NCBI GenBank assembly: GCA_900314215.1
Contig: OMUK01000043.1
Span: forward strand, 1 to 57,769
Direction: 5' to 3'
Origin: an uncultured Prevotellaceae bacterium
GTDB taxonomy: Bacteria > Bacteroidota > Bacteroidia > Bacteroidales > Muribaculaceae
DNA length: 57,769 nt
The translations under genes were made by a program, and so were the position numbers. Position 1 is the first letter of the stretch. Every line of letters starts with the position of its first letter. Under the pieces are notes generated by a model, which ran no database searches, had not been told where the DNA came from, and worked only from the letters and a program-made list of their open reading frames with translations. This document shows positions 6,137 to 22,576 of this stretch, one piece after another.

Positions 6137-6766
6137 ATGAGACTCATTTCGGTTATCGTTTGTCTATTCCTGGCAATTTCGGCTGTGGCACAGCGTGCCG
6201 TGGCTCTCGATAGCTTGCGCGAGGGCGACTTGCTCTTTGTGGTCACACCACAGGCCAACGCCATCACCCAGGTCACGCGCGGGGTAGAGGAGATGCCCAT
6301 CGACCATGTGGCCATCTTCCACTGGCGCACCACCGACAGCATTGCCACCGTGCTGCAGGCCATAGGCAAGGGCGTGGTCATGGAGCCGCTCGACTCGTTG
6401 CGCAGCGAGGCTGGCAAGGGTGCCATGCTGCTTGTGGGGCGGGTGAATGCCGACCTCGATGCCCACACCTCGCTCACCCGTGCCATGACCCTGCTGGGCA
6501 AGCCCTATGACTACTACTATGGCGCCGACGACAAGGAGATATATTGCAGCGAACTGGTGCAAAAGAGCTACGTCGACCATGCCGGCCGCCCCATCTTCAC
6601 CCCCATCCCCATGACCTTCCGCGACAAGCAGGGGCGCATACCCGATTATTGGACCCGCCTCTATGCCGCCCGAGGCCTGGCGGTGCCCGAGGGCGCACCC
6701 GGCTCCAACCCCGGCGACCTCTCGCGCCGCCCCGTCGTCACGCTCCTGGGTTTTCTCCAGCCTTAA
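6137..6766 (+). CDS. YiiX-like NlpC/P60-family hydrolase, secreted
   Basis: A 209-aa exported protein of the circularly permuted papain-like (YiiX/YebB) amidase group. It has a signal peptide (MRLISVIVCLFLAISAVAQ), LREGDLLFVV at about residue 30, IDHVAIFHW at about residue 56 with the likely catalytic His, and DKEIYCSELVQKSY at about residue 137 with the likely catalytic Cys. Family members cleave amide bonds in peptidoglycan or lipids; the substrate here is unknown. It lies 19 bp after lptD, so it is probably in the lptD operon. A GC hairpin without a T-run (arms 6778-6786 and 6797-6805) follows. Confidence 0.8.
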   Translation: MRLISVIVCLFLAISAVAQRAVALDSLREGDLLFVVTPQANAITQVTRGVEEMPIDHVAIFHWRTTDSIATVLQAIGKGVVMEPLDSLRSEAGKGAMLLVGRVNADLDAHTSLTRAMTLLGKPYDYYYGADDKEIYCSELVQKSYVDHAGRPIFTPIPMTFRDKQGRIPDYWTRLYAARGLAVPEGAPGSNPGDLSRRPVVTLLGFLQP

Positions 6767-7052
6767 TCCCCCCCTCGGCACGCCGCCTTCATCGCAGCGG
6801 CGTGCTAAAGTTGCCGATTGCATTCACCCGCTGGTGGACAAATGGGGGGGTGACGCAACGCCAAAGTCAGGCGAAAGATTCCTGAACCTGCACAGTTGCG
6901 ATTTTTCAAGAAAATGTGGCAAATTTTTTGGAATTGTTATTTTTTTGGAATACCTTTAACAACTTTTACATGAGAGCCTTGTGCAATCGGTCTTCTCATA
7001 ACTGCCGGTTGCATAGCGCTTCTATCACTAGAACCCCTAATTAGTTTGTATT
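6767..7052 (+). other. Intergenic region with hairpin, repeat remnant and promoter
   Basis: No gene is seen. It holds a GCACGCCGC/GCGGCGTGC hairpin (6778-6805). A stretch at about 6813-6870 (GATTGCATTCACCCGCTGG onward) matches the end of the repeat block at 22.5 kb. A promoter-like pair follows: TTG at 6928-6930, 20 bp, TACCTTTA at 6951-6958. This could drive the large surface protein with an ~85-nt leader. Confidence 0.6.
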
Positions 7053-10000
7053 ATGAGAAAAAAATTACTCACTCTGTTGGCCCTGCTGCTTGCGCTTGCT
7101 ACCATAACGGCGCGCGCCCAGCTCACGGCCGACGCCGAGCACCAGCTCATCGCCTCGCGCATCAATGCCGCCATGGCAAGCGATGCGCAGCATGCCTATG
7201 CCACGCCGCCTAGTGTGGCGGCTCTCTCGGCTCTTGTGCCTGGCGAGGGCGAGCTGCAACGGCTGCCACTCGACGCCCCGGCGGCTCCTGCCGCCAAGCA
7301 GGCACCCAACTTGATCAAGAGCAAGGCGCCCGATGTGCGCAAGGCGCTCTTCGACGGCCCGCTTTACCTAAACGAGAAAAGCGTGAACTGGAGCACTGGC
7401 GCAATCAAGCACAACGGACTCGTGCGCATCGAGGCCCGGGGCGACAGTGCCGTCACCATCTACAACCTGGGCACCATTGCCGATACCCTCGAGGCTATCG
7501 TCAACGCCAAGGCGGGCACCGTGAGCATCATGCCTAAAAAGGTGCGCTCCCTGGGCACCACCTATGGCGACGTGTGGCTGGTGTCGGCTCAAGCCGATGC
7601 TTCGGGCCTCGTGACGCTGAGCACCACTCAACCCGTCACGGGCAACGTCGATAGCGAGGGTGTGGTCACCCTGCATGGCTGGGGCTTGCTCGTGCCCACA
7701 GGCACCTATAAGGGATATGGCTATGGCCTCTACTCCTCGAGCACCCTCAATTTCACCAATGCTGTGGTGACCGAGGTGCTCAACCACACGGGCACCGACT
7801 CTACGGTGGTCTATCCCATCTATGCCGAGCAGACGATGGCCAACCAGATGACCATTACCAACTGGGGCAACCTCGATGCCACCATCGACATGACCTTCAA
7901 TAGCGACTCCACCACCTACATCACCCCGCAGCTCATGTTCTCCAGTCCGCTCTATGGCGACTTCTACTGCTACCGCGCCGAGTGGACTGCTACCGGTGGC
8001 CGCGTGCATTACGAGGGCATCACGGGTCAGGGCGATGCAACGTCGGTGAAATTTGGCAATTGGGCCGTCTACACGCGCGGGTCGAGCTACCTCTTGGGCC
8101 GGCGCGTGATGAGCAGCACAATCAATCTCACCAGTGGCAGCTTTGTGTATCCCGCCGCTCCCGTGCTCAATCTCTCGGGCTCGGGCACCGAGGCCGATCC
8201 CTGGGTCATCAACACTGCCCAGCAGCTGCAGGCCCTGGGCGAGAAAGTGTATTTGGGCGAGACCTACCAGGGCAAGCACTTTGCCCTGGGTGCCGACATC
8301 GACCTATCGGCTATCTCGCTCGTGTGGCGACCCATCGGCCGGCTCGAGCACCCCTTTGCCGCCAGCTTCCATGGCAACGGCCACACCATCAAGAACCTGA
8401 ATGTGAAGGTGGGTGAGGAGAAGTACTACGGCATATTTGGCTGTGTCGACACGCTCACGACCATCGACAATGTGAAACTCGACGCCATCACGATGGATTG
8501 CGCTGGCGCGTATAGCGGCCTGCTCGTGGGTCGAACCAAGGGTAATGTGACCGGCATCACCGTCACCAATTCCACGCTCACTCACCGCAACGCGATAGGC
8601 GGCGGCATCGTGGGCTGTTTTGTGGGCCCGCTCATGAGCGATTGCACCTTCTCGGGCGTTGTCGCCGGCCAGGGCGCAACTGGCGGCGTGGTGGGCCAGG
8701 TCGTGACCCACGCCACGCGGCTTGTCAACCATGGCACGGTGGCCATGACCGGTCTCTACAACAATGCCTACAACGGCTGCGGCGGCGTGGTGGGCGAACT
8801 CTTCCTCGACAAGTATCACCACGGTCTGCTCGAGGATAGCTACAACGACGGCACGGTGCAAGGCAACTCTGCCTCGTCGCACATAGGCGGCGTGGTGGGC
8901 GATGTGATGGGCGGCGTCATGAAGCGCTGCTTCAACATGGGCCCGCTCTTCACCTCGATAACCAAGCCCTCGAGCACCAATGTCGTCTCGGGCAGTGCCG
9001 GCGGCCTGTGTGGCAATGTGTTTGGCGGCACCATCACCGATTGCTACAATGCCAATGTGGTGCGCAACAGCGCCACCATCGACCGCGTGGGCGGCCTGGT
9101 GGGCTATGTGATTTCGCCTGTCTACACCTATAGCGGAGGCCGGCTCATCAATGTCACCTATACCTCGCTCATTACCAATAGCATCAACTATGGCCAAGTG
9201 CTGCAATTGGCTTTGGACACCACCCAGGGCCTCTATGGCACGACCTATACCGACACCATCTTTGTGAACTGCTACTACGACCAGCAGCTCACGGGCAACG
9301 CGGCGCCCAAGCGTGCCATGATGGCCACGCGCCAGCTCACTGCCGGCACCCTGCCCGAGGGCTACGATGCCAGCGTGTGGAATTTCACCGCCGGCCTGCT
9401 GCCTCGCCTGAAGTCGACCATGACTGTGCCGGCAGCCATTGTGGGCGCCTCGCCGCTCACGCTGGCCGAGGGCGAGACCACCCGCAAGGTGAAGCACGAC
9501 TTCATCACCAGCAGTGCCAATGCTGTGCAGTGGCGCATCTTCGACGCCACTTCTAGTCGGCTCACGACCGAGTCGACAGGCCTGGTGATGAGCGGCGACA
9601 CCGTGAAGCTGAAAAACACGAGTTCGACCGAGTTGATGCAGGCTTCGCTCGCAGGCACCGACGCCGCCAAGCTCGTCACGGTCGCCACCGTCGACCCCTC
9701 GGGCTTTGTGGGCTCAGGCACCGAGAGCGACCCCTACCTGATCAATGACCTCGAAGACCTCATCCTGCTCAACAAGGGCGTTACCAAGAATTCGCAGACC
9801 TACGAGGGCGACTACTTCAAGCAGACTGCCGACATCGACTGCCAGCGCAGCCCCCTCTTCAAGGGCATCGCTTGCGACAACAAGTCGACGCAATACTTCG
9901 AGGGCACCTACGACGGCCAGGGCTATGCCATCCACAACCTGTGGGTCGACTCGGTGAAGATTGGCTCCAATGGCTCTCCGGCCATGTCGGGCACCGGCAC

Positions 10001-13000
10001 GGTCATGGGCTTCATAGGCGCTGCCGGCGAGCACTCCACGATTAAGAATGTGGTGATTGCCGCCGACTGCCACTTCCGTGCCTACTCCTATGTGGGCGCA
10101 GTGGCTGGCGTGAGCAAGGGCACAATCACGGGTTGCCGCAACTATGCTCCCGTGGAGTGCGTGAGCAACTATGCCGGCGGCATTGCCGGCTCGTCGCAGA
10201 GTGGCTTGATCACCGATTGCTATAATGCCGGCACCGTGAGCACATCGGGCTCCTATGCCGCGGGCATCGTGGGCTCGAGCAGCGGCGTGGTGAGCTATTG
10301 CCAAAACGACGGCATGGTGATAGGCGACTCGATCGCGCCCAACTACCGCCGTCAAGGCCTGCAGACCTATGTGGGCGGCATTGTGGCCTTTGTGCTCACC
10401 AGCGACAAGGCCCGCGTCGAGGGCTGTGTCAACACGGGCACCATCAAGGCTGCCTATGGCGTGGCTGGCATCACGGTGAACGTCAACAACAACCAGTCGC
10501 CCATCACGGGCAACATCAATTATGGCATGATTGTGGCCACCAATCTCGGCAAGACCGAGAATGGCGCCATCGAGGCACGCATGGTGAACGCCTACAACAC
10601 GGGCGCGTTCGCTAGCAACTACTACGACGGGCAGATTGCCACCTGTGGCGCAGTAGAGGGCGCCGAGGTGCCTGGCACCACCGCGCTCACCACCGCAAGC
10701 CTCACCAGCGGCACGCCTCTCGACAGCCTCGAGGCCGACCGCTATAGCTGGAGCAAGGGTTTGTATCCCGTGTTGAAGAGCTTTGCCGCCGAGCCCATGG
10801 CCGACGCTCACCGCCGCATGGTGGTGACCTGCGCCCCGGCCGAGGGCATCCTCGACCTGCGCACTCAGGCCCAGCTCATGACCGACTCCACGCTCTCGTG
10901 GACTCTCGCTGGCGGCAACTTCACCATAGGCAGCGACGGCGTGCTCACCCCACGTGCAGCCGCCAGTGCCTCCACCTCGGTGCGCGATACCCTCACGGCC
11001 ACCATCGGCACCTACACCAAGCAGCTGCCGTTGCGCTCCATCACGCTGCCCTTTGCCGGCGCCGGCACGCAAGCCGACCCGTTCCAAATCAAGACCAAGG
11101 ACGACATGCTCGCACTGGCGCGCATCAGCAACGGCGAGAGCTATCCCTTCAACAACTGCTACTTCAAGATGATGAACGATATCGACTTCGACACCACCGC
11201 CTATGAGCCCATCGCCGTGGGTGGCAACACCATCAACTGCGACTTCGACGGCGCTGGCCACAAGCTCGAGAATATCAACTACGTGAGCGACGAGATCTCT
11301 GAGTCCTATGTGGCACTCTTCGGCACTGTGGGCCGCCAGGGCAGCGTCCACGACCTCATCCTGGGAAGCGGCAACATCAGCATGCGTGAGCGCGTTGCCG
11401 GCTTTGTGGCCAAGCTTTATGGCACGGTCTACAACTGCGAGAACCATGCCACGATACAGTGCACCAAGTATAGTGGCGCTGCCGGCATTGTGCAGTTGAT
11501 GATGGCGGGCTCGGTGGTGCACGATTGCGCCAACTATGGCTCGGTGGCATCGGCCAGCAGCAACACGGCCGGCATCGCCGGCATCGTGCGCGGTGGCGCG
11601 CTTCTCTACAACTGCGTGAACTATGCCGACCTCACGTCGACCCGCAATCAAGTGGCTGGCGTGGCTGGCGATGTATATGGCACGGTTTCGGGCTGTGAGA
11701 ACAAGGGCGCCATCAGCGGCACCGCAAGTGTGGCCGGCATCGCAGCCTACACCTATGGCGGCACGGCTCGCATCGACCACTGCGTGAATCGCGGCAAGGT
11801 CACCGCCACCAGCAATCCCGCTGGCGGCATCCTTGCCATGGTGCAATCCTCGTCGTCTACCTACAAGAATGGCGGTAGCAAGACGCTGCTCACCAATTGC
11901 TACAACACTGCCGACGTCACTTCCAAGGGCACTGCCGGCGGTGTGCTGGGCAACTCCAGCAACGCAATTACCATGATCGACAGCTGCTACAATACTGGCA
12001 CGGTGACCACCACCACGGGCACCTACACGGGTGGCGTGGTAGGCCAAATGGTGGGCAAAACTTCATCCTCCATGGTGTCGCACAGCTACAACACAGGCGA
12101 TGTGATAGGCGTGAAGTATACTGGCGGCATTGTGGGCTACCTCTCCGACGCCCGCCTCGCCCAGTGCCGCAACTATGGCAATGTGCTCTGCTCTTCCTAT
12201 TATGTGGGCGGCCTCGCCGGCTCCAGCTATGGCGACATCGACAGCTGCTACAACGTGGGCAATGCCGAGGCCGACCGGTATGCCGTGGGCGGCATCGCAG
12301 GTCTCAACTATGGCTCGGTGAATGCTTGCTTCAACGCTGGCAAGGTCACTGCCAATGGCGACCCAGCCACCTCGGTGCACAGCAGCGCAGGCGGCATTGC
12401 AGCCTATGCCATCGGCAACACGCTGTATGCCTACAACTTGGGCGAAATCCACTCCAAGGCCTATGCCGCAGGCATCACGGCCAACTTCTTCCGCAACGAC
12501 AGCTTGCGCTTCGGCGACTGCTACGCCGCCGGCCCCATCGTGACTACGAGCTACACCCAGGTGAGCCAGCTTGCTCGCATCTCGAGCGGCACCGTGCGCG
12601 TGCGCAACAACTACTACGACATCGACGTTAACGGCTCAGTCCCGCTCAGCTCAGTCGACTCGATATGCCACGGCGTGACTACCCGCGAGCTGGTCGACGC
12701 CAAGTTCACCGACGGGCACTACACCGAGCGCGCGGGCATGTATCCGGTGCTCACCATCTTTGCCGGCGATCCTGTGGCCCTCTATTGCGCAGCCACTCCT
12801 GTGCTGGCCCAGGGCGACACGCCCAAGAGCGTGAGCCAGAAGTTTGACCTGGGTTGCCCCGAGGGCACCGTGTGGACTTGCGACAACGACAACCTGGTGC
12901 TCGGCGACGGCTACGCCACTCCCGTGAAGACGGGCACCTCGGTGCTCACCAAGACCTATGTCGACGAGGCACTGGGCCTGAACCTGAGCAGGAGCTACAC

Positions 13001-13181
13001 CATCACCATTACCGGCGTGTCGGGTGTCGACGACGTCAACGCCGCTGGCAAGGTGGTGGCAGGTGTGACCTACTACAACACCCTGGGCCAAGCCCAGGCC
13101 GAGCCCTTCACCGGCGTCAATGTCGTGGTCACCCGCTACACCGACGGCACCACCGCCACCGCCAAGCAGGTGTTCAAGTAG
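7053..13181 (+). CDS. Giant GLUG-repeat surface protein with C-terminal sorting domain
   Basis: A 2042-aa secreted, probably cell-surface-anchored beta-solenoid protein. Seen: a signal peptide (MRKKLLTLLALLLALATI); an N-terminal beta-rich region to about residue 370; then three large modules. Each opens with a G-x-GTxxDP header and a DID/F...G.GH segment (starting near residues 374, 887 and 1336) and is followed by runs of GLUG-type units such as GGVVGQV, AGGIAGSS and TGGIVGYL. Ig-like spacers separate the modules. The end (VTYYNTLGQAQ, NVVVTRYTDG) resembles the C-terminus of the gene at the right edge of the window, consistent with a T9SS-like sorting signal. Likely role: adhesion or glycan contact, by analogy with GLUG proteins. 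A strong terminator follows. Confidence 0.8.
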   Translation: MRKKLLTLLALLLALATITARAQLTADAEHQLIASRINAAMASDAQHAYATPPSVAALSALVPGEGELQRLPLDAPAAPAAKQAPNLIKSKAPDVRKALFDGPLYLNEKSVNWSTGAIKHNGLVRIEARGDSAVTIYNLGTIADTLEAIVNAKAGTVSIMPKKVRSLGTTYGDVWLVSAQADASGLVTLSTTQPVTGNVDSEGVVTLHGWGLLVPTGTYKGYGYGLYSSSTLNFTNAVVTEVLNHTGTDSTVVYPIYAEQTMANQMTITNWGNLDATIDMTFNSDSTTYITPQLMFSSPLYGDFYCYRAEWTATGGRVHYEGITGQGDATSVKFGNWAVYTRGSSYLLGRRVMSSTINLTSGSFVYPAAPVLNLSGSGTEADPWVINTAQQLQALGEKVYLGETYQGKHFALGADIDLSAISLVWRPIGRLEHPFAASFHGNGHTIKNLNVKVGEEKYYGIFGCVDTLTTIDNVKLDAITMDCAGAYSGLLVGRTKGNVTGITVTNSTLTHRNAIGGGIVGCFVGPLMSDCTFSGVVAGQGATGGVVGQVVTHATRLVNHGTVAMTGLYNNAYNGCGGVVGELFLDKYHHGLLEDSYNDGTVQGNSASSHIGGVVGDVMGGVMKRCFNMGPLFTSITKPSSTNVVSGSAGGLCGNVFGGTITDCYNANVVRNSATIDRVGGLVGYVISPVYTYSGGRLINVTYTSLITNSINYGQVLQLALDTTQGLYGTTYTDTIFVNCYYDQQLTGNAAPKRAMMATRQLTAGTLPEGYDASVWNFTAGLLPRLKSTMTVPAAIVGASPLTLAEGETTRKVKHDFITSSANAVQWRIFDATSSRLTTESTGLVMSGDTVKLKNTSSTELMQASLAGTDAAKLVTVATVDPSGFVGSGTESDPYLINDLEDLILLNKGVTKNSQTYEGDYFKQTADIDCQRSPLFKGIACDNKSTQYFEGTYDGQGYAIHNLWVDSVKIGSNGSPAMSGTGTVMGFIGAAGEHSTIKNVVIAADCHFRAYSYVGAVAGVSKGTITGCRNYAPVECVSNYAGGIAGSSQSGLITDCYNAGTVSTSGSYAAGIVGSSSGVVSYCQNDGMVIGDSIAPNYRRQGLQTYVGGIVAFVLTSDKARVEGCVNTGTIKAAYGVAGITVNVNNNQSPITGNINYGMIVATNLGKTENGAIEARMVNAYNTGAFASNYYDGQIATCGAVEGAEVPGTTALTTASLTSGTPLDSLEADRYSWSKGLYPVLKSFAAEPMADAHRRMVVTCAPAEGILDLRTQAQLMTDSTLSWTLAGGNFTIGSDGVLTPRAAASASTSVRDTLTATIGTYTKQLPLRSITLPFAGAGTQADPFQIKTKDDMLALARISNGESYPFNNCYFKMMNDIDFDTTAYEPIAVGGNTINCDFDGAGHKLENINYVSDEISESYVALFGTVGRQGSVHDLILGSGNISMRERVAGFVAKLYGTVYNCENHATIQCTKYSGAAGIVQLMMAGSVVHDCANYGSVASASSNTAGIAGIVRGGALLYNCVNYADLTSTRNQVAGVAGDVYGTVSGCENKGAISGTASVAGIAAYTYGGTARIDHCVNRGKVTATSNPAGGILAMVQSSSSTYKNGGSKTLLTNCYNTADVTSKGTAGGVLGNSSNAITMIDSCYNTGTVTTTTGTYTGGVVGQMVGKTSSSMVSHSYNTGDVIGVKYTGGIVGYLSDARLAQCRNYGNVLCSSYYVGGLAGSSYGDIDSCYNVGNAEADRYAVGGIAGLNYGSVNACFNAGKVTANGDPATSVHSSAGGIAAYAIGNTLYAYNLGEIHSKAYAAGITANFFRNDSLRFGDCYAAGPIVTTSYTQVSQLARISSGTVRVRNNYYDIDVNGSVPLSSVDSICHGVTTRELVDAKFTDGHYTERAGMYPVLTIFAGDPVALYCAATPVLAQGDTPKSVSQKFDLGCPEGTVWTCDNDNLVLGDGYATPVKTGTSVLTKTYVDEALGLNLSRSYTITITGVSGVDDVNAAGKVVAGVTYYNTLGQAQAEPFTGVNVVVTRYTDGTTATAKQVFK

Positions 13182-13226
13182 CCGCCCCGCATCCTCACTT
13201 CGTGAGCCCAATCGACTCATTATCCA

Positions 13227-13268
13227 AAATATCCCCGCTGTGTGTCACCCTGCACAGCGGGGATATTT
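13227..13268 (+). terminator. Strong terminator after the GLUG protein
   Basis: Perfect 16-bp inverted repeat (13227-13242 and 13253-13268, core ATCCCCGCTGTG) with a 10-nt loop. It marks the border between the GC-rich genome and the AT-rich island that follows. Confidence 0.85.
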
Positions 13269-13613
13269 ATTGCCGGCATTTTCACCATGATAGTTGATCG
13301 TGAATCACAGTATTATAAGCCCCAGCCTTCAGAAGGTCGAGTTTGCCGATATGTGGCCAATTCACCCCTGCTTCAGGATATAGCCCCAGTTGCCTTTTAA
13401 TCAACTTTGAGGCATAAAACAGAAAACAAAGTTATCACCACCAAATTAGCAGCCAATTATTTACAAGAAAAATTATCTCACACTTCCAAACTTCAGTTCC
13501 CATTTGAAATTTTGCTCATTGTTTGTGGAGTGCTTTGAAAAATGTATTATAAATTTTTGACTTTCAAAAATTTTTTGTAAAATTGCAAAATTAAAATGTG
13601 ACATTAATCTTCT
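13269..13613 (+). other. AT-rich gap at the left edge of the island
   Basis: No coding frame is supported. Base composition falls abruptly to AT-rich here and stays so to about 19.95 kb. A weak promoter-like pair (TTG near 13557, TAAAATTG at 13578-13585) precedes the glycosyltransferase start. I see no direct repeats or att-like site. Confidence 0.5.
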
Positions 13614-15208
13614 ATGCATACCTCATTTAAAACCATAGAGCCTTTCTGCCGCAATTTTGACGTGAGTGTAGTGATCCCTTTTTATAAGAAAATGAGGGAG
13701 TTTAGCAGAGTGTTCCCGAAAAATCGGAAATACTTTGAGCGGAATGGCATTGAGGTTGTACTTGTCCTCGACACGCCCGAAGAATCTCAGGAATTACAGC
13801 ACTTCATCTTGCAATACCCATTTGTGAACTGGCGCATTGTGATGAATGACAAGCCTCATGAATGGCGCAATCCCGCAAAGCCTCTAAATGTGGGCATAAG
13901 GTTCGCGACTAAACTTTTGTAATGGTGTGTTCTCCAGAATCAGAAATGGTAACCGATGTAATAGCTATTTTGCGTAAGTCGTTTGACGACTACTCCGATT
14001 GTCCTCATTATGCTATCGGCAGAGTTTGTTTCGCTGACGAGGAAGAAGTGAATGAAGCCAATTTCAATCAATATCAATCTATCCCTTTTGGTAGCATTAT
14101 GTTTGAAAAACGTCATGCCGAGCAAATTCATGGGTATGACGAAACCCTCTCAAAATGGGGTGGCGATGACAATAATTTTCGTTCTCGCCTTGATATGATT
14201 GGCGTGAAGGAACTTTATTTTAATGAGGCGATGATGGCTCATCGCGATATTGACAACCAGGAGGGCAAGGTGAGAAGGGGCAAGCCTTTTGAAAAAACAC
14301 CAAATGATTTGTTGCGTCATTTCTTTTTCCCCGAGAAGGCCATCGCCAACGATAAGAATTGGGGGACGGATTTTGACAAGTTGGTGTATGATTGGCAAAA
14401 CAAGCCGGCGTCATCAGAAAAACAATTGAAAAAATTTTGCGCAAATAAATTCACCGATTATAGTTTAGTTAACCATTTTGGCGGAAAAACATTTCCTGTG
14501 TTACTGTTGGTCCAGAGCTATAATGAGAGCCACAGAATAGGGCAATTCCTTGAAAAGGCTTCGCACATGTTTGATGGGATTGTACTGCTCGACGATGGTA
14601 GCACCGACAACACCTATGAACTTGCGCAGTGCGATAAACTTCTTTTTAAGTGCAAGAAATGCAGAACTGAATTCAACGATTTGCAGAACAGGAACTTGCT
14701 TCTTGATTTGGCATCGTTTGTGAACCATAAAATTGCCTTTTTCCTTGATGTGGATGAAATGCTAGATGAGCGGTTTTGTGAAGTTTACCATTATTTGGAA
14801 GGCGATGAAGCAGATGCTTATTTGGTTCCCTACATTCACCTTTGGGACACCCCGGGCACTTTCAATTATCAATATCCCAGCTCGATTGATGGCGTATGTT
14901 TTCGGTATAAGATGATTCGCAACATAGGCCATGCACAAATCTTTTCTAACCGGGGTAGGCTTCACTTCCATCAAGCCCCTACACTGGCGAAATCAGCAAT
15001 AGCCGATCGTCTGCTGATTCTGCATTATGGTTTTCTGTCTTCTGAAGATAGAAAAGCGAAATATGAGTTCTATATGGCGGAAGATACAGAAGGGTGCCAG
15101 AGTAGTTATGAGCATTTCTGCGAAAAGGCAACCCCCTTGTTAAATAATGTGGCTGAAATAACTGCACAACAATTACACCAGCTGTCACTAAAACTAATTT
15201 CCAAGTAA
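13614..15208 (+). pseudogene. Two-domain family 2 glycosyltransferase, frameshifted
   Basis: Two frames together encode one ~530-aa protein. Frame 1 (13614-13922) gives the GT2 start FDVSVVIPFYKKM and ends ATKLL-stop. Frame 2 (13922-15208) resumes with VMVCSPESEM. Its upstream codons restore TFV directly after ATK if one A is added to the AAA run at 13911-13913, so a 1-base deletion in an A-run is the simplest cause. The second part has a GT7-like C-terminal motif (GYDETLSKWGGDDNNF). It then starts a second GT2 domain (FPVLLLVQSYNESHRIG, VLLDDGSTDNT, AFFLDVDEML). Family members add sugars to a peptide or glycan. The two frames overlap as TAATG, so re-initiation could still make the larger part. 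A sequencing error is possible. Confidence 0.75.
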
Positions 15209-15210
15209 TT

Positions 15211-16335
15211 ATGAAAATATATTTAACGGCAACCTGCGCTCAAGCAAAGTATAGTATACTTTATGAGAATCTATATCAAATCTTCTCAAAAGAGAATGCT
15301 TTTGAAATAATTGATGTGTGCTATGACGCAGATTGCGTTGTGAGCGTTGGCGACATAACAAATGAGATTATTGACTGTAAGCAAAAGAATAAAATAGCGG
15401 TCATTAGATTCCTTTTTAGGTCTGACATATCCCAGTATTTCTACACCGATGTCACACTGGTCGACTACACATTTTGGGTCTGTGACCTGGACATCAACAT
15501 CCTTTGTCCATATCAGCAAATGTCAGAAAAAATAGCCGTGCCTTTTGACTTCACCCTGGCAGAAAGAGAAAAGAATGATAATGCAAAAGATTTTGACATA
15601 TATGTGAACACAGGTGAGTTTTTGTATGCCGACAGCGCACTGTTTAAGATTTTACGTACCTTGAACAGGCTCACGCAATTGAAAATTGATGTGTGTAGCA
15701 CAAACGAAAGCATCAAGCACCTTGCAAACGCCAATATCTGCATAACAGACAGCAGCAACGACATAGAAAGCCATGTTAGGCAAGCCAAAATGGTGATAGG
15801 TTCGGGCTATGCTGTACTTTTTGCCATAAAGCACCATAAGCCGTTTATTGTTCTTGGCGAGCGTGGCTATGGGGGGATACCAACTCCTAACAACATTGTG
15901 CAGTTTTATAATGAATTTTTCCAAGGAACAATAGGCGGCAGGCTTGACGGACCTTTGCCAGAGAACCTTGTTTATGAAGATATTGTTAATATTCTAAATA
16001 ATATGAACACGATAGACTTTGCAAGCACGCTATCTGGATATATGCTGAAAATAAAGAATAGGATTATTGAGCAGCTTAACTTCTTAATGTTGCAGAGTCA
16101 AATAGCAGATGTATGCAAGCTGAGATTCAATACAGACTATACCATTTTACAAGGGAACGGCAATTGCTGGCTTCTAAACAGATTTACGCATTTTATAGAG
16201 AGGAAATTAAATCCTGATGAATTAGAAGTTTTAAAAGGGTATATCAGTGCTAGAAGAGAGGTCTGTACTTTTACACAAAAGAGAATAGAGAAACTTCAAC
16301 AAGATAGAATCCTAATAACAAATAATATGCTTTAA
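15211..16335 (+). CDS. Unknown protein of the RiPP island, GT-B-like C-terminal half
   Basis: A 374-aa intact AT-rich gene starting 2 bp after the glycosyltransferase stop, so probably co-transcribed. No signal peptide or membrane segment. I do not recognise a named family. An N-terminal segment MKIYLTATCAQAKYSILYEN and VVSVGDI suggest a Rossmann-like start. Around residue 195, QAKMVIGSGYAVLFAIKH followed by PFIVLGERGYGG resembles the sugar-nucleotide half of GT-B glycosyltransferases. The last ~80 residues (NGNCWLLNRFTHFIE onward) look like a helical or winged-helix tail. Position before the precursor peptide suggests a role in peptide modification; glycosylation is the best guess. Confidence 0.55.
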   Translation: MKIYLTATCAQAKYSILYENLYQIFSKENAFEIIDVCYDADCVVSVGDITNEIIDCKQKNKIAVIRFLFRSDISQYFYTDVTLVDYTFWVCDLDINILCPYQQMSEKIAVPFDFTLAEREKNDNAKDFDIYVNTGEFLYADSALFKILRTLNRLTQLKIDVCSTNESIKHLANANICITDSSNDIESHVRQAKMVIGSGYAVLFAIKHHKPFIVLGERGYGGIPTPNNIVQFYNEFFQGTIGGRLDGPLPENLVYEDIVNILNNMNTIDFASTLSGYMLKIKNRIIEQLNFLMLQSQIADVCKLRFNTDYTILQGNGNCWLLNRFTHFIERKLNPDELEVLKGYISARREVCTFTQKRIEKLQQDRILITNNML

Positions 16336-16381
16336 TTAGCATTCTCAATAAACGTTTTATTAACTTCTTAAACAATTTATT

Positions 16382-16792
16382 ATGACCAAACAGAAAGATG
16401 ACCTTAGAGAATTCGTTGAAGGTCTTGAATTAACCGTTTTGAAAGAAGAAGATGCTGTCCTTTTGGAAGGTATGGTTGGTACGAGTGGAACTGGTACAAA
16501 CAACTGCAAATGTGGTTTATTTAGCTCCGACAATTGTCAATGTCACGGGAGTAACAACTGCAAATGTGGCTTCTTTAGTACCTTAAATAATGTCAAGCTG
16601 TTAGCTCGTCATGGAGTGCCTGTTAGATTGAGGATAAACAGTACAAATGAAAATATAAATTCATTAGAATGCATAACGGCAGATTTTTCTGATTTGAATG
16701 AAGATATTTTGAAGCATATATATATATCGACATTCACGTTGTTTGGCAGGAGAGGGACAAACATTTATTGGAAAAGAAAATGCCAGGTGTGA
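16382..16792 (+). CDS. RiPP precursor peptide fused in frame to part of a radical SAM maturase
   Basis: A 136-aa frame with two clearly different halves. Residues 1-40 look like a leader (LREFVEGLELTVLKEEDAVL, then LEGMVG). Residues ~40-67 are a Cys-rich core with a repeated NNCKCG(L/F)FS unit and DNCQCH between, like precursors of the Bacteroidales GG radical-SAM peptide systems. From residue ~68 the text changes to NVKLLARHGVPVRLRIN, the tail of a radical SAM barrel. The maturase's start and its CX3CX2C cluster motif are missing. The simplest reading is a deletion joining precursor and maturase. The frame then runs off at a two-base slip in the (AT)6 tract at 16716-16727 and ends in unrelated residues. 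Confidence 0.65.
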   Translation: MTKQKDDLREFVEGLELTVLKEEDAVLLEGMVGTSGTGTNNCKCGLFSSDNCQCHGSNNCKCGFFSTLNNVKLLARHGVPVRLRINSTNENINSLECITADFSDLNEDILKHIYISTFTLFGRRGTNIYWKRKCQV

Positions 16793-17205
16793 TAAGTGCC
16801 TTTAAGAAAAATCGACTAGAAGCCACGAAAATGACGTTCAGAGAATTTTGTTATGCCGATAGGCGTAATCAGTGCGTGGTGCATTATAACGGTGATATCT
16901 ACAAATGTACAGCAATTGATTTTGAGAATACGAAGCGCGATGGGTTCTTAAACGATGAAGGAGAAATTATATGGGAAAATAACAGTTTGGAAAAGCGAAT
17001 GGAATCAAAGTTTAATTCCAGGAAATGCCTTGATTGTACAATTTTCCCATTATGCCATGGGGGATGCTCAAGTTTTGGACTGAAAAATAAGAATGGTTGC
17101 GTGTATAATGATGATTCTACAGCTATGCAAAAAGCTATTAGAGACCGCATTAGCTATAATTTATCTAAGGGTAGATTACGTTACAAGAAACATATTGCAA
17201 AATGA
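16728..17205 (+). pseudogene. SPASM-domain remnant of the radical SAM peptide maturase
   Basis: Continuation of the maturase in another frame: after the AT tract, bases from about 16728 read DIHVVWQERDKHLLEKKMPG, which fits the family better than the precursor's frame. The SPASM cysteines are all present: QCVVHYNGDIYKC, then CLDCTIFPLCHGGC (exact CX2CX5CX3C), then a final NGC. So the auxiliary iron-sulfur sites survive while the SAM-binding core is deleted. The fragment could be translated alone from a TTG at 16768 or the ATG at 16780. It overlaps the next gene as ATGA (17202-17205), which suggests that maturase and receptor were translationally coupled. Confidence 0.75.
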
Positions 17206-19553
17206 AGCGTGCTATTACAATGTTGTCATTAGTGCTTGTGACCATACAAGCCTTTTCATATAATCTTACTGGTAGAGTTCTTGACGAAAAGGATAAACAG
17301 CCTCTTCCTGGCGCTACTGTAAGGATTTCGGCTGTAGCGTCTGATTCTGTTCTCAATTACACAGTCACAAATCAGGACGGAAGGTTTGAGCTGAAAAACA
17401 TACATTACAAAGGGAATGTTTCTGTTTTGCTATCATGCTTAAGTTACAATCCTGTTACCTTTGAGATGAAGGACGTCAGCAAGTCGATAGATTTGGGAGA
17501 TGTTTTGATGACAGGGATAGTCAACAATCTCGATGAGGTGGTTGTGACTGCAAGTGAGACGATTGAAAAATATGACAGAATTTTAGTGTTCCCAACATCA
17601 GAGGAGCGCAAAATCTCGTCAGACGTGATCGACTTGCTTAGCAATATGAAAATGAAATTGCCAGGAATTGACGTGAATCTGATGACTCGCACTATTAACA
17701 TTAATGGTAAAGAGCCTGTCTTTCAAATTAATGGCAAGGTGGAACCTTTGTCGAAAATTCGAATGATCAACAAAAACAGAATATTGCGTGTTGAGTACAA
17801 AAACCAATCCGATATAAGGTTTTCTAACGATGGGATAAATGGTGGTGTGATAAATTTCATTTTAAAAAATGACACTGATGGCGGTAGTGTGCATACTCGC
17901 GCAGGAGTTACAGTAACCACGCCGAGAACAAGCGGTGAGGTTGGCTTCACTTATAACAACAAGAGTTCGGAATGGTCTCTGAATTATGATAATGTCTGGA
18001 GAAATAGTTCAAAACAATATACTGACAATTATGAAACTTACATTGGAAAAAATTATGAAATTGAACGTCAGCAAATAGGTCTTCCATCTTCGTTCAAGGA
18101 CTTTGACAACAATCTTTCTTTAGGCTATACCTACAAGCATGACCAAAACACGACATTTTCAACTGATTTTGGCCTGCGATATCACAATGTGGATGAAAGC
18201 GACGAATACCTGATGCGCCAGATTAAAGGTGCCTACTCTTTTGACTTTACAAAAATTAACACGCGAAAATCCGAAACCATTGATCCGAAACTGAATTTGT
18301 ATTTCAACAAGCACTTTGGAAGACGTATGTTGGAATTTGATTTAACTGGCGCATATTCATCGGGCGACTATTCCAGGGGAATGAACTACATATATGGCCC
18401 CTCGGAGCAATACATTCAAAACAACAAGACCAACAACAAGAGCTATTTGGCAAGTTCAGAAGTGCTCTTTTCTTGTGTATTTAATAACTTCACTACTAAT
18501 TTTGGTTTGAATTATTCTTATAATTACGTTGACAATGGCTATTCCGAAAGCGAGAAAGAAATAGACAACACTTTGTCGAAGCATAAACTATATGTGTACA
18601 GGAACATCGGAGGAAGCCTTGGCAAATTGAACTATTCAGTCGGTGTTGGTGGAAGATTAGAGGCTGTGTCAAATGATGGCAAGTGCAAGACTGCTATGCG
18701 GCCCAATTTGTCGGCTTTAATCAGTTATCCCGTTATGAAACAAGCCAATTTGAGCTTGAATTACACTTATATGCCCTCGCTGCCGTCATTGTTTAACTTT
18801 TCAGAAGTGATGCAAACTATTGATGACATTTCACTGCAAACAGGAAGTCTTAACATTGGGCCAACTGAATATCATAGCACAAAGATCTCCTTCCGAACTG
18901 TAATATGGAAACTAAGTGCCAACTTTTCGGCCGAGTATTCAAGAAACAACAAACCACTGGTGAATGTATGGGAATATGATTCCGACCCACAGAGCATGTA
19001 TTACGACAAGTTTATTAGCAGGACTTCAAACGGGAAATACCAAGATTGCATGAATTTTCAAATGGATATTGCAACTCAAAGGTTTCTCAACTGTTTTGCT
19101 GTAAATGGACAATTTGGTTGGAACAGGTTTTGCATTTCTGGCTGGAGGGACTACAAATATACACTCAGCAAGTTTTATGCTTCATTAGGGCTGAATGCCG
19201 TAGTTAAGAACATTAGCATAATCTCAGTATATGATATCCTCCCGCGATACGCTGTAAATGGCCTTTCTGTTTCCTGTAATTCGGTTTCTTTTTATATGGG
19301 ACTAAATTGGAGGTATAGGAACATCGTGGCAGGAATTATGGCTGGAAACTTGTTTACGAGAAAGGCTAACCAGGTTAAAACTTCCTACATTTCTTCTGTA
19401 AGACCCATGAGCCAAAAATACTACATCAAAGATTTTTCTAATCTTGTGGAACTGACATTTCAATACAATATCGATTTTGGCAAGCAGTATGGGCGAACAA
19501 GCCGATCGCTGGAGGGAGAAAATATTGACAGAGGTGTAAATAATGCATATTAA
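17202..19553 (+). CDS. TonB-receptor-like outer-membrane protein of the RiPP island
   Basis: An intact 783-aa AT-rich gene. Seen: a signal peptide (MKRAITMLSLVLVTIQAFS); a CarboxypepD_reg-like domain (NLTGRVLDEKDKQPLPGATV) at about residues 20-100; a plug-like region (LDEVVVTASE near residue 112, through ININGKEPVFQINGK, to GGVINFILKND near 220); and a beta-barrel to the end. It has the build of the smaller TonB-dependent/outer-membrane beta-barrel family, not of SusC proteins. The start overlaps the maturase stop (ATGA). Linked to a peptide cluster, it may export, import or be the target of the peptide product. This is inference. Confidence 0.78.
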   Translation: MKRAITMLSLVLVTIQAFSYNLTGRVLDEKDKQPLPGATVRISAVASDSVLNYTVTNQDGRFELKNIHYKGNVSVLLSCLSYNPVTFEMKDVSKSIDLGDVLMTGIVNNLDEVVVTASETIEKYDRILVFPTSEERKISSDVIDLLSNMKMKLPGIDVNLMTRTININGKEPVFQINGKVEPLSKIRMINKNRILRVEYKNQSDIRFSNDGINGGVINFILKNDTDGGSVHTRAGVTVTTPRTSGEVGFTYNNKSSEWSLNYDNVWRNSSKQYTDNYETYIGKNYEIERQQIGLPSSFKDFDNNLSLGYTYKHDQNTTFSTDFGLRYHNVDESDEYLMRQIKGAYSFDFTKINTRKSETIDPKLNLYFNKHFGRRMLEFDLTGAYSSGDYSRGMNYIYGPSEQYIQNNKTNNKSYLASSEVLFSCVFNNFTTNFGLNYSYNYVDNGYSESEKEIDNTLSKHKLYVYRNIGGSLGKLNYSVGVGGRLEAVSNDGKCKTAMRPNLSALISYPVMKQANLSLNYTYMPSLPSLFNFSEVMQTIDDISLQTGSLNIGPTEYHSTKISFRTVIWKLSANFSAEYSRNNKPLVNVWEYDSDPQSMYYDKFISRTSNGKYQDCMNFQMDIATQRFLNCFAVNGQFGWNRFCISGWRDYKYTLSKFYASLGLNAVVKNISIISVYDILPRYAVNGLSVSCNSVSFYMGLNWRYRNIVAGIMAGNLFTRKANQVKTSYISSVRPMSQKYYIKDFSNLVELTFQYNIDFGKQYGRTSRSLEGENIDRGVNNAY

Positions 19554-19758
19554 AAAAACAAGGATTTGAAAGACAATAGAAGCACAAGGCATTTTAAAGT
19601 TTTTTGGCAGGCGGAAAGTACAGACTACGGACCAGCATGTCTGCAAATGGTCTGTGCTTTTTATGGAAAGAGTGCTGCAATCCTCCGATGAATATGCCAA
19701 AACGGTCGGGCTTTTGTTTGGTAAACGATTGATAGATGCAATAAAATCAATATATTAA
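19544..19758 (+). pseudogene. Stump of a C39-peptidase ABC exporter, plus an unassigned tail
   Basis: A short ATG frame at 19544 overlaps the receptor stop (MHIKKTRI-stop). In another frame, 19563-19691 encodes HFKVFWQAESTDYGPACLQM and VCAFYGKSAAILR, then a stop. That is the start of a C39 (bacteriocin-processing) peptidase domain: the oxyanion Gln is kept, but the catalytic Cys of DCG is Tyr (TAC for TGC). No transporter follows. In a third frame, ATG at 19663 opens 31 residues ending at 19758 (KTVGLLFGKRLIDAIKSIY), perhaps the end of another lost gene. Leader removal and export genes for the precursor therefore appear deleted. Confidence 0.65.
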
Positions 19759-19963
19759 ATTTTGACCATCCAGTTTTGACCGTCATCACGGCTGTCTCAT
19801 TTTAAAAAACGCATACCTTGATTTTGACTGGTCAAAACAATCTTAAATGAAAGAGCCGTGAGAATTTTTGAAATTTAGGGGCTAAAGATTTCGTGGTTAA
19901 GCATTTTTTTGCTATCTTTGCACCGCTTTTTAAACAAAACATAATTATTTAATTTTTACAAGA
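19759..19963 (+). other. Gap with imperfect inverted repeat and rpsO promoter
   Basis: No gene. An imperfect inverted repeat pairs about 19787-19805 (CACGGCTGTCTCATTTTAA) with 19843-19860. Three TTTTGAC copies lie in the same stretch, one forming TTTTGAC-TG-GTCAAAA. TATCTTTG at 19913-19920 is a likely -7 box for rpsO. Base composition returns to the GC-rich genome just after, so this is the right edge of the island. Confidence 0.5.
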
Positions 19964-20239
19964 ATGTACTTAGATTCAGAAAAGAAAAAAGAGATCTTCG
20001 GCACTTACGGTAAAAGTAATACTGATACTGGTTCTCCTGAGAGCCAGATTGCATTATTCTCGGTCCGTATCGCCCACTTGACCGAACACTTGAAGGCCAA
20101 CAAACAAGATCATACGACTCAACGTGCTCTGAAGATGCTGGTAGGTAAGCGTCGTCGCTTGCTCGATTACCTCATCCGCAAGGACATCAACCGCTATCGT
20201 GCCATCATCGCTCGCAAGGAGCTCGGCATCCGCAAGTAA
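19964..20239 (+). CDS. rpsO: Ribosomal protein S15
   Basis: The 91-aa small-subunit protein S15, which binds the central domain of 16S rRNA. The sequence is full length with family hallmarks: TGSPESQIALFSVRI, LTEHLKANKQDH, KMLVGKRRRLLDYLIRKD and YRAIIARKELGIRK. Driven by a TATCTTTG box about 45 bp upstream. A hairpin with T-run follows 41 bp after the stop, so it is a single-gene transcript. Confidence 0.98.
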   Translation: MYLDSEKKKEIFGTYGKSNTDTGSPESQIALFSVRIAHLTEHLKANKQDHTTQRALKMLVGKRRRLLDYLIRKDINRYRAIIARKELGIRK

Positions 20240-21674: not shown

Positions 21675-22576
21675 CGCTCACCCCCTTAATAAATGCCGCA
21701 TCACTCCTGTGGCGCGAGCCGACTTGTAGGGGCCGGTCTTGTGCCGGCCCACGACGATGTCGCATCCTATTTCATTGATTGACAATAGGATAGAACCGTG
21801 CTTGTGGGCCGACACAAGATCGGCCCCTACAGGTTTGTATTTGTGCTTTGTCGCGTTGCAGTTGTGATGTTGAAAACCAATTTCCCTAAAACCTGGACGG
21901 CCACTAGGGCCGCACCCTGCCAGTTGCACCCTGCCAATTGCATTCACCCACCAGCGAACAATCTGGGATGACACATTGGGTGAAGTCGCCTCCATCGTAA
22001 AAACCATCATGGTAAAAACCGACCTGTAGGGACCAGTCTTGTGCTGGCCCACGACGATGTCACATCCTATTTCATTGATTATTAATAGGATGGAACCGTG
22101 CTTGTGTGTATTTTTGCGCTTTGTTGCGTTGCAGTTGTAATGTTGAAAACCAATTTCCCAAAAACCGGATGGCCACAAGGGCCGCACCCTGCCAATTGCA
22201 ATCCGCCAGTTGCACCCTGCCAATTGCATTCACCCACCAGCGAACAATCTGGGATGACACATTGGGTGAAGTCGCCTCCATCGTAAAAACCATCATGGTA
22301 AAAACCGACCTGTAGGGACCAGTCTTGTGCTGGCCCACGACGATGTCACATCCTATTTCATTGATTATTAATAGGATGGAACCGTGCTTGTGGGCCGACA
22401 CAAGATCGGCCCCTACAGGTGTGTATTTGTGCTATGTTGCAACTGTAATGTTGAAAACCAATTTCCCTAAAATCTGGACGGCCACTAGGACCGCACCCTG
22501 CCAGTTGCACCCTGCCAATTGCATTCACCCACTGGTGAGCAATTGGGGGTGACGCGACTCCACAGTCAAGAAGTGC
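21675..22576 (+). repeat. Palindromic repeat block with 286-bp direct duplication
   Basis: About 900 bp without a supported gene, built from nearly three ~300-bp units. Each unit starts with a long palindrome: TGTAGGGGCCGGTCTTGTG and on to 21752, pairing with 21804-21831 at 26 of 28 positions; copy 3 is 22311-22338 with 22390-22417. An inner TCCTATT/AATAGGA stem follows, then a spacer with GTTGAAAACCAATTTCCC and CCTGCCAATTGCATTCACCC. The second unit (22025 onward) has lost its right arm after CTTGTG at 22106. Bases 21920-22106 and 22206-22392 are identical over 187 bp, so the last duplication is recent. Related sequence occurs at 6.8 and 28.1 kb. Confidence 0.88.

Follow-up and report, generated by a model that had tools for sequence, protein, structure and literature searches.

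The 136-aa frame at 16382-16792 (+) of the window, the whole 57,769-nucleotide stretch of DNA analysed, joins most of a RiPP precursor to part of a radical SAM/SPASM maturase and is very probably the relic of a deletion in a decayed RiPP gene cluster. A dying gene cluster is preferred to a new kind of protein because a relative carries the whole gene set. This relative, G061, belongs to the same genus as the window genome and is in one contig. It gave a strong two-piece match when DNA of 16340-17205 was searched against 150 related genomes, with 88% to window 16357-16581 and 82% to 16589-17205.

The fused frame and the whole cluster of G061

The G061 cluster lies on one strand with all genes open and consists of a 533-aa glycosyltransferase, a 372-aa protein, a 72-aa Cys-rich precursor, a 428-aa radical SAM/SPASM maturase, a 793-aa barrel-type protein, a 737-aa C39 ABC exporter (domains Peptidase_C39, ABC_membrane and ABC_tran) and a 316-aa glycosyltransferase. 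Precursor and maturase are separate genes there, and the maturase has CX3CX2C together with the SPASM set. The spacer between the two genes, which is gone from the window, holds a 15-pair hairpin (-23.5 kcal/mol) with T after it. The features of the window cluster are as follows.

13614..15208 (+), glycosyltransferase remnant in frames of 102 aa and 428 aa, frameshifted near 13914-13921; a single gene of 533 aa in G061
15211..16335 (+), 374-aa protein, open; 77% identity with its 372-aa counterpart in G061; without a Pfam match
16382..16581 (+), most of the RiPP precursor, namely the leader and a Cys-rich core that holds two NNCKCG units; 88-89% identity to the G061 72-aa precursor; end residues and stop lost
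16582..16588 (+), deletion junction; 7 bases here, 730 in G061, between the matching ends
16589..17205 (+), radical SAM/SPASM maturase C-terminal remnant, from G061 residue 227; AT-repeat frameshift at about 16714-16728; SPASM cysteines within 16768-17202
17202..19553 (+), barrel-type outer-membrane protein, 783 aa, open; CarboxypepD_reg-like N-domain matched
19566..19673 (+), C39-peptidase ABC exporter, first ~36 residues (full length in G061 737 aa); truncated by a deletion of ~3 kb
19669..19752 (+), family-2 glycosyltransferase, last ~28 residues; 316 aa in G061

The protein at 17202..19553 is presumably a barrel from the look of such proteins, its sole matched domain being the N-domain. 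The first glycosyltransferase of the window matches Pfam Glyco_transf_7C and Glycos_transf_2; against TIGR04195 (SunS, peptide S-glycosyltransferase; cut-off 350) the window part scored 26.9 bits and the G061 protein 21.7 bits.

Leader, NNCKCG-type core and NVKLLARHGVPVRLRIN are all present in the fused frame. By pairwise tblastn its N part corresponds to residues 1-69 of the 72 of the separate G061 precursor (88%) and its C part to the G061 maturase from residue ~225-227 of 428, with the crossover from precursor residue ~67 to maturase residue 227; the final 20-25 residues lie outside the maturase frame. The next frame, of 145 aa at 16768-17205 (+), carries the SPASM cysteines CX13GX4C and CX2CX5CX3C and one further Cys, and thus the full set (CX9-15GX4C, CX2CX5CX3C, C). 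It scored 45.8 bits against NCBIfam TIGR04085 (SPASM; cut-off 27) and 17.6 against the Pfam SPASM model, under the cut-off of 21.5. The fused frame itself reached no family cut-off in NCBIfam or Pfam. No CX3CX2C, the SAM-binding cluster, was found on the + strand of 13000-20000; two matches on the minus strand (15763, 18435) were set aside as unrelated Cys runs.

The sequence-only reading had described a precursor leader and Cys-rich core joined to the tail of a radical SAM barrel, with a complete SPASM set in the next frame and CX3CX2C absent, and all of this is borne out by the alignments to the separate G061 genes and by the motif and family searches. The pairwise matches to G061 have E = 5e-42 for the precursor part and E = 8e-86 for the SPASM part, values that exclude chance as the source of either likeness. 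The window has no continuous maturase frame, the remnant being split over two frames, and no short separate precursor gene with leader and two Cys-rich repeat units, the leader and most of the core being retained. Nor does it have a complete peptidase-ABC exporter, of which ~36 residues remain.

The same reading had pointed to the GG-type radical SAM peptide families of Bacteroidales. The maturase clearly belongs with the RiPP radical SAM/SPASM enzymes. For the precursor this placing is not supported, because in NCBIfam the intact G061 sequence has no match up to E = 10, the GG-type family TIGR04149 included; it likewise matches no Pfam family, and the GG-type precursor family was ruled out.

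Lesions, selection and direction of change

At 16582-16588 the window has lost a net 723 bases relative to G061, comprising the precursor end and stop, the spacer hairpin and the first 226 maturase residues. A junction near 16585 and further damage nearby had been proposed from the letters of the window; alignment of the all-open G061 cluster places the junction at 16582-16588, and three more lesions are found within the cluster. These are the frameshift in the first glycosyltransferase, a length change in the AT repeat that shifts the SPASM part of the maturase into another frame, and a ~3-kb deletion at 19650-19671 that took most of the exporter and of the last glycosyltransferase. The frameshifts are known from one fragmented assembly (140 contigs). 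Four of the seven cluster genes are broken (first glycosyltransferase, maturase, exporter, last glycosyltransferase), two are whole (374-aa and barrel proteins), and the precursor runs on into the maturase. The proposal of a dying cluster in which a deletion joined the precursor to the maturase is thereby supported, by the all-open G061 cluster and by the three further lesions.

The two parts of the glycosyltransferase gave a pairwise dN/dS between the window and G061 (Nei-Gojobori, own script) of 0.05 and 0.12, and the 374-aa protein gave 0.20. The precursor came to 0.07, the maturase pieces to 0.11 and 0.10, and the barrel protein to 0.11. Low values in every measured part (0.05-0.20) fit selection until recently. 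Since dS is 0.6-1.3, most of the divergence would be older than the decay, and the decay recent. Two observations count against decay: the 374-aa and barrel genes remain open, and dN/dS is low in the broken pieces too, which fits recent decay and could also fit continued use. These figures neither show nor exclude that the genes stayed in use once fused.

Both cysteine motifs are in one frame, of 429-467 aa, at all 22 maturase loci tested (21 distinct genes, L005 being the same as L034). The loci were drawn from G061, G049, a Mucilaginibacter MAG and order-level relatives, the Desulfobacterales MAG locus L013 being left out; a contig scan with the SPASM part gave two relatives, the Mucilaginibacter and Desulfobacterales MAGs. 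The order-level sample, 16 of 393 genomes (own genome included) that passed E 1e-40 with at most 4 scored candidates per genome, favours whole maturases. Small Cys-rich candidate precursors are seen by eye as separate genes in 8 of 11 relative loci (L012, L015, L039, L041-L044, L046) and none is seen in the other three (L038, L040, L045). Five candidates from four loci align with the window leader and have 22-30% identity to the G061 precursor. On this comparison separate genes are most likely the original state and the fusion a later change, because the maturases of relatives are in one frame and the candidate precursors are in separate genes. The precursor is present in 2 of 101 genomes of the genus, own genome included.

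Some further peptide genes were observed. In L044 (G182), at 7831-8616, four short Cys-containing peptides with GG-type leaders are encoded one after another ahead of a radical SAM maturase relative. In L016 (G063:C25), 8906-8967 is 85% like the precursor upstream region over 40 bases and is followed by a start codon at the contig end; it is maybe another precursor gene.

Genomic place and other explanations

The rpsO region of G061 is collinear with the window on both sides of a 13.2-kb block, window 6734-19901, which is absent there; 115 bases part the matching ends at that site. The G061 cluster lies at about 427 kb and its rpsO at 2.96 Mb. The cluster has thus either changed place or been gained separately in the lineages of the window and of G061, because the block is missing at the collinear place and the G061 cluster is elsewhere. 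Beside rpsO, the block carries the decayed cluster together with a surface-type frame of 2042 aa that is rich in repeats. A short element at 19786-19861 has inverted ends (TCACGGCT/AGCCGTGA, by eye) and is possibly a MITE or the end of an insertion sequence. Its part 19815-19862 repeats at 90-94% at no fewer than five further sites in the genome (of 72 candidates, 6 were scored); four of these five other copies lie no more than about 250 bases from one end of a contig. A further repeated stretch is found at 21678-22552, where several frames have near-identical blocks in common. A DNA search with the upstream flank did not help with synteny: the matches listed were short and scattered, at most about 165 bases long in other genomes, with three more in the window genome itself.

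It is very unlikely that the lesions are artefacts of assembly or sequencing and that the organism has a whole cluster of which the assembly dropped or damaged pieces. The 140 contigs speak for such a fault, as does the nature of two of the four lesions, which are short indels, one at an AT repeat. However, each of the eight genes hand-picked from around rpsO in G061 can be aligned with the window in a single frame (a count that leaves out one 148-aa gene, presumably thiol-peroxidase-like), which disfavours a general sequencing fault. The 2042-aa frame just upstream is open, the lost maturase half is not found elsewhere in the assembly, and homology to G061 reaches both sides of both deletion junctions. 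The chance is smaller again that the cell still makes a shortened precursor and relies for its maturation and export on proteins from genes at other loci. Its start, leader and two core units are kept at 89% identity to G061. Against this, no near copy of the lost maturase half was found in the ~90%-complete genome, the best match in the whole genome being 26% identical and looking, by eye, like a sulfatase maturase. No full C39 exporter was found there either, the only two C39 pieces covering about 29 and 34 model positions. The second, truncated piece is the sole other C39 match and lies in L079 (G000:C5 end, 1616-1804, minus) as a 34-position match in a 69-residue frame near the contig end. 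At ~90% completeness a maturase or an exporter at another locus may have escaped detection, and so these absences are no proof.

Least probable of all is a precursor of a new type, containing part of a radical SAM barrel and, via frameshifting, an auxiliary Fe-S domain of its own, although the fused frame is open, its join is in frame and dN/dS is low in both halves. The sequence-only reading had put forward a precursor with its own Fe-S domain as its alternative, for which the genomes searched gave no second example (150 relatives, 101 genus genomes and 393 order genomes, in overlapping sets). Further, the SPASM part is out of frame after the AT-repeat length change, the 21 relatives tested have a whole maturase as a gene of its own, and the full C39 exporter is missing from the genome as assembled. 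A new precursor class was ruled out on the lack of a second example and on the whole separate maturases of relatives. The fusion is thus best read as a deletion relic in a decayed cluster.

Proposed pathway and relation to known systems

The chemistry, the role of the peptide and its glycosylation are set out here as we infer them. By family membership, the G061 precursor leader would be bound by the radical SAM/SPASM maturase, which would cross-link or otherwise modify the Cys-rich core; the C39 domain of the exporter would remove the leader, and the product would then be exported. The glycosyltransferases of the cluster may attach a sugar. In the window, a single deletion would have removed the end of the precursor gene, the hairpin spacer and the SAM-binding half of the maturase, the rest staying in frame by chance. 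A second deletion would have removed most of the exporter and of one glycosyltransferase. The two frameshifts may be earlier or later than the deletions, and function has presumably been lost.

A C39 ABC exporter gives a long match somewhere in the stretch in 9 of 11 relative maturase loci and the barrel protein a match in 3 of 11; neither of the glycosyltransferases nor the 372-aa protein is matched at any of the 11 other maturase loci compared, and the sugar step may therefore lie outside the maturase system. Relatives of the 533-aa glycosyltransferase (41-42%) adjoin relatives of the 372-aa protein in L081 (G338, another family of the order; 7745-10106) and in L082 (G264; 9972-12389). A C39 ABC exporter match is present in L081 and lacking in L082, and no radical SAM maturase match was found in either over the 20 kb read. 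The sugar step is the least secure part of the pathway, since its proteins are unmatched at the 11 maturase loci and are paired without a maturase in G338 and G264. The nearness of the large glycosyltransferase and 372-aa relatives to a C39 ABC exporter in G338 favours a glycosylated RiPP. It is a possibility, on the unlikely side, that the G061 cluster is an undescribed kind of RiPP system, in which a two-repeat Cys-rich peptide would be modified by the radical SAM/SPASM enzyme, glycosylated by the cluster's own transferases, and cut and exported by the C39 protein.

The G061 maturase resembles NCBIfam NF038107 (CefB), TIGR04463, TIGR04334 (Clo7bot) and NF047865 (PapB) over much of its length (E 3e-45 to 3e-36), but its 125-155 bits are far under their cut-offs of 340-600. 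Among the 25 families listed of 74 matched in NCBIfam, no cut-off was reached, which suggests a radical SAM/SPASM maturase type under the cut-off of every named family among those 25; the Pfam SPASM model gave no match at E 0.01. Like the radical SAM/SPASM RiPP maturases it has CX3CX2C and the SPASM set, and like their systems it has a small Cys-rich peptide encoded next to it and a C39 ABC exporter beyond the barrel gene. The window copy, unlike functional maturases of this kind, is without the SAM core. A search for viral relatives of the maturase gave 4 stretches that matched the pattern, with 0 confirmed. Bacteroidales radical SAM RiPP clusters comprise radical SAM proteins with SPASM, precursor peptides and, in some, glycosyltransferases (PMC10352776), and no cluster with a G061-type precursor was recognised in the available part of that paper. 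A literature search with general terms gave no description of this precursor.

The striking fusion of precursor and maturase is most likely the product of a deletion, and this reading guards against recording it as a new precursor class. The relic also gives a lead to a relative's complete radical SAM cluster, which includes glycosyltransferases and whose precursor matches no named family in the databases searched (Pfam, NCBIfam).
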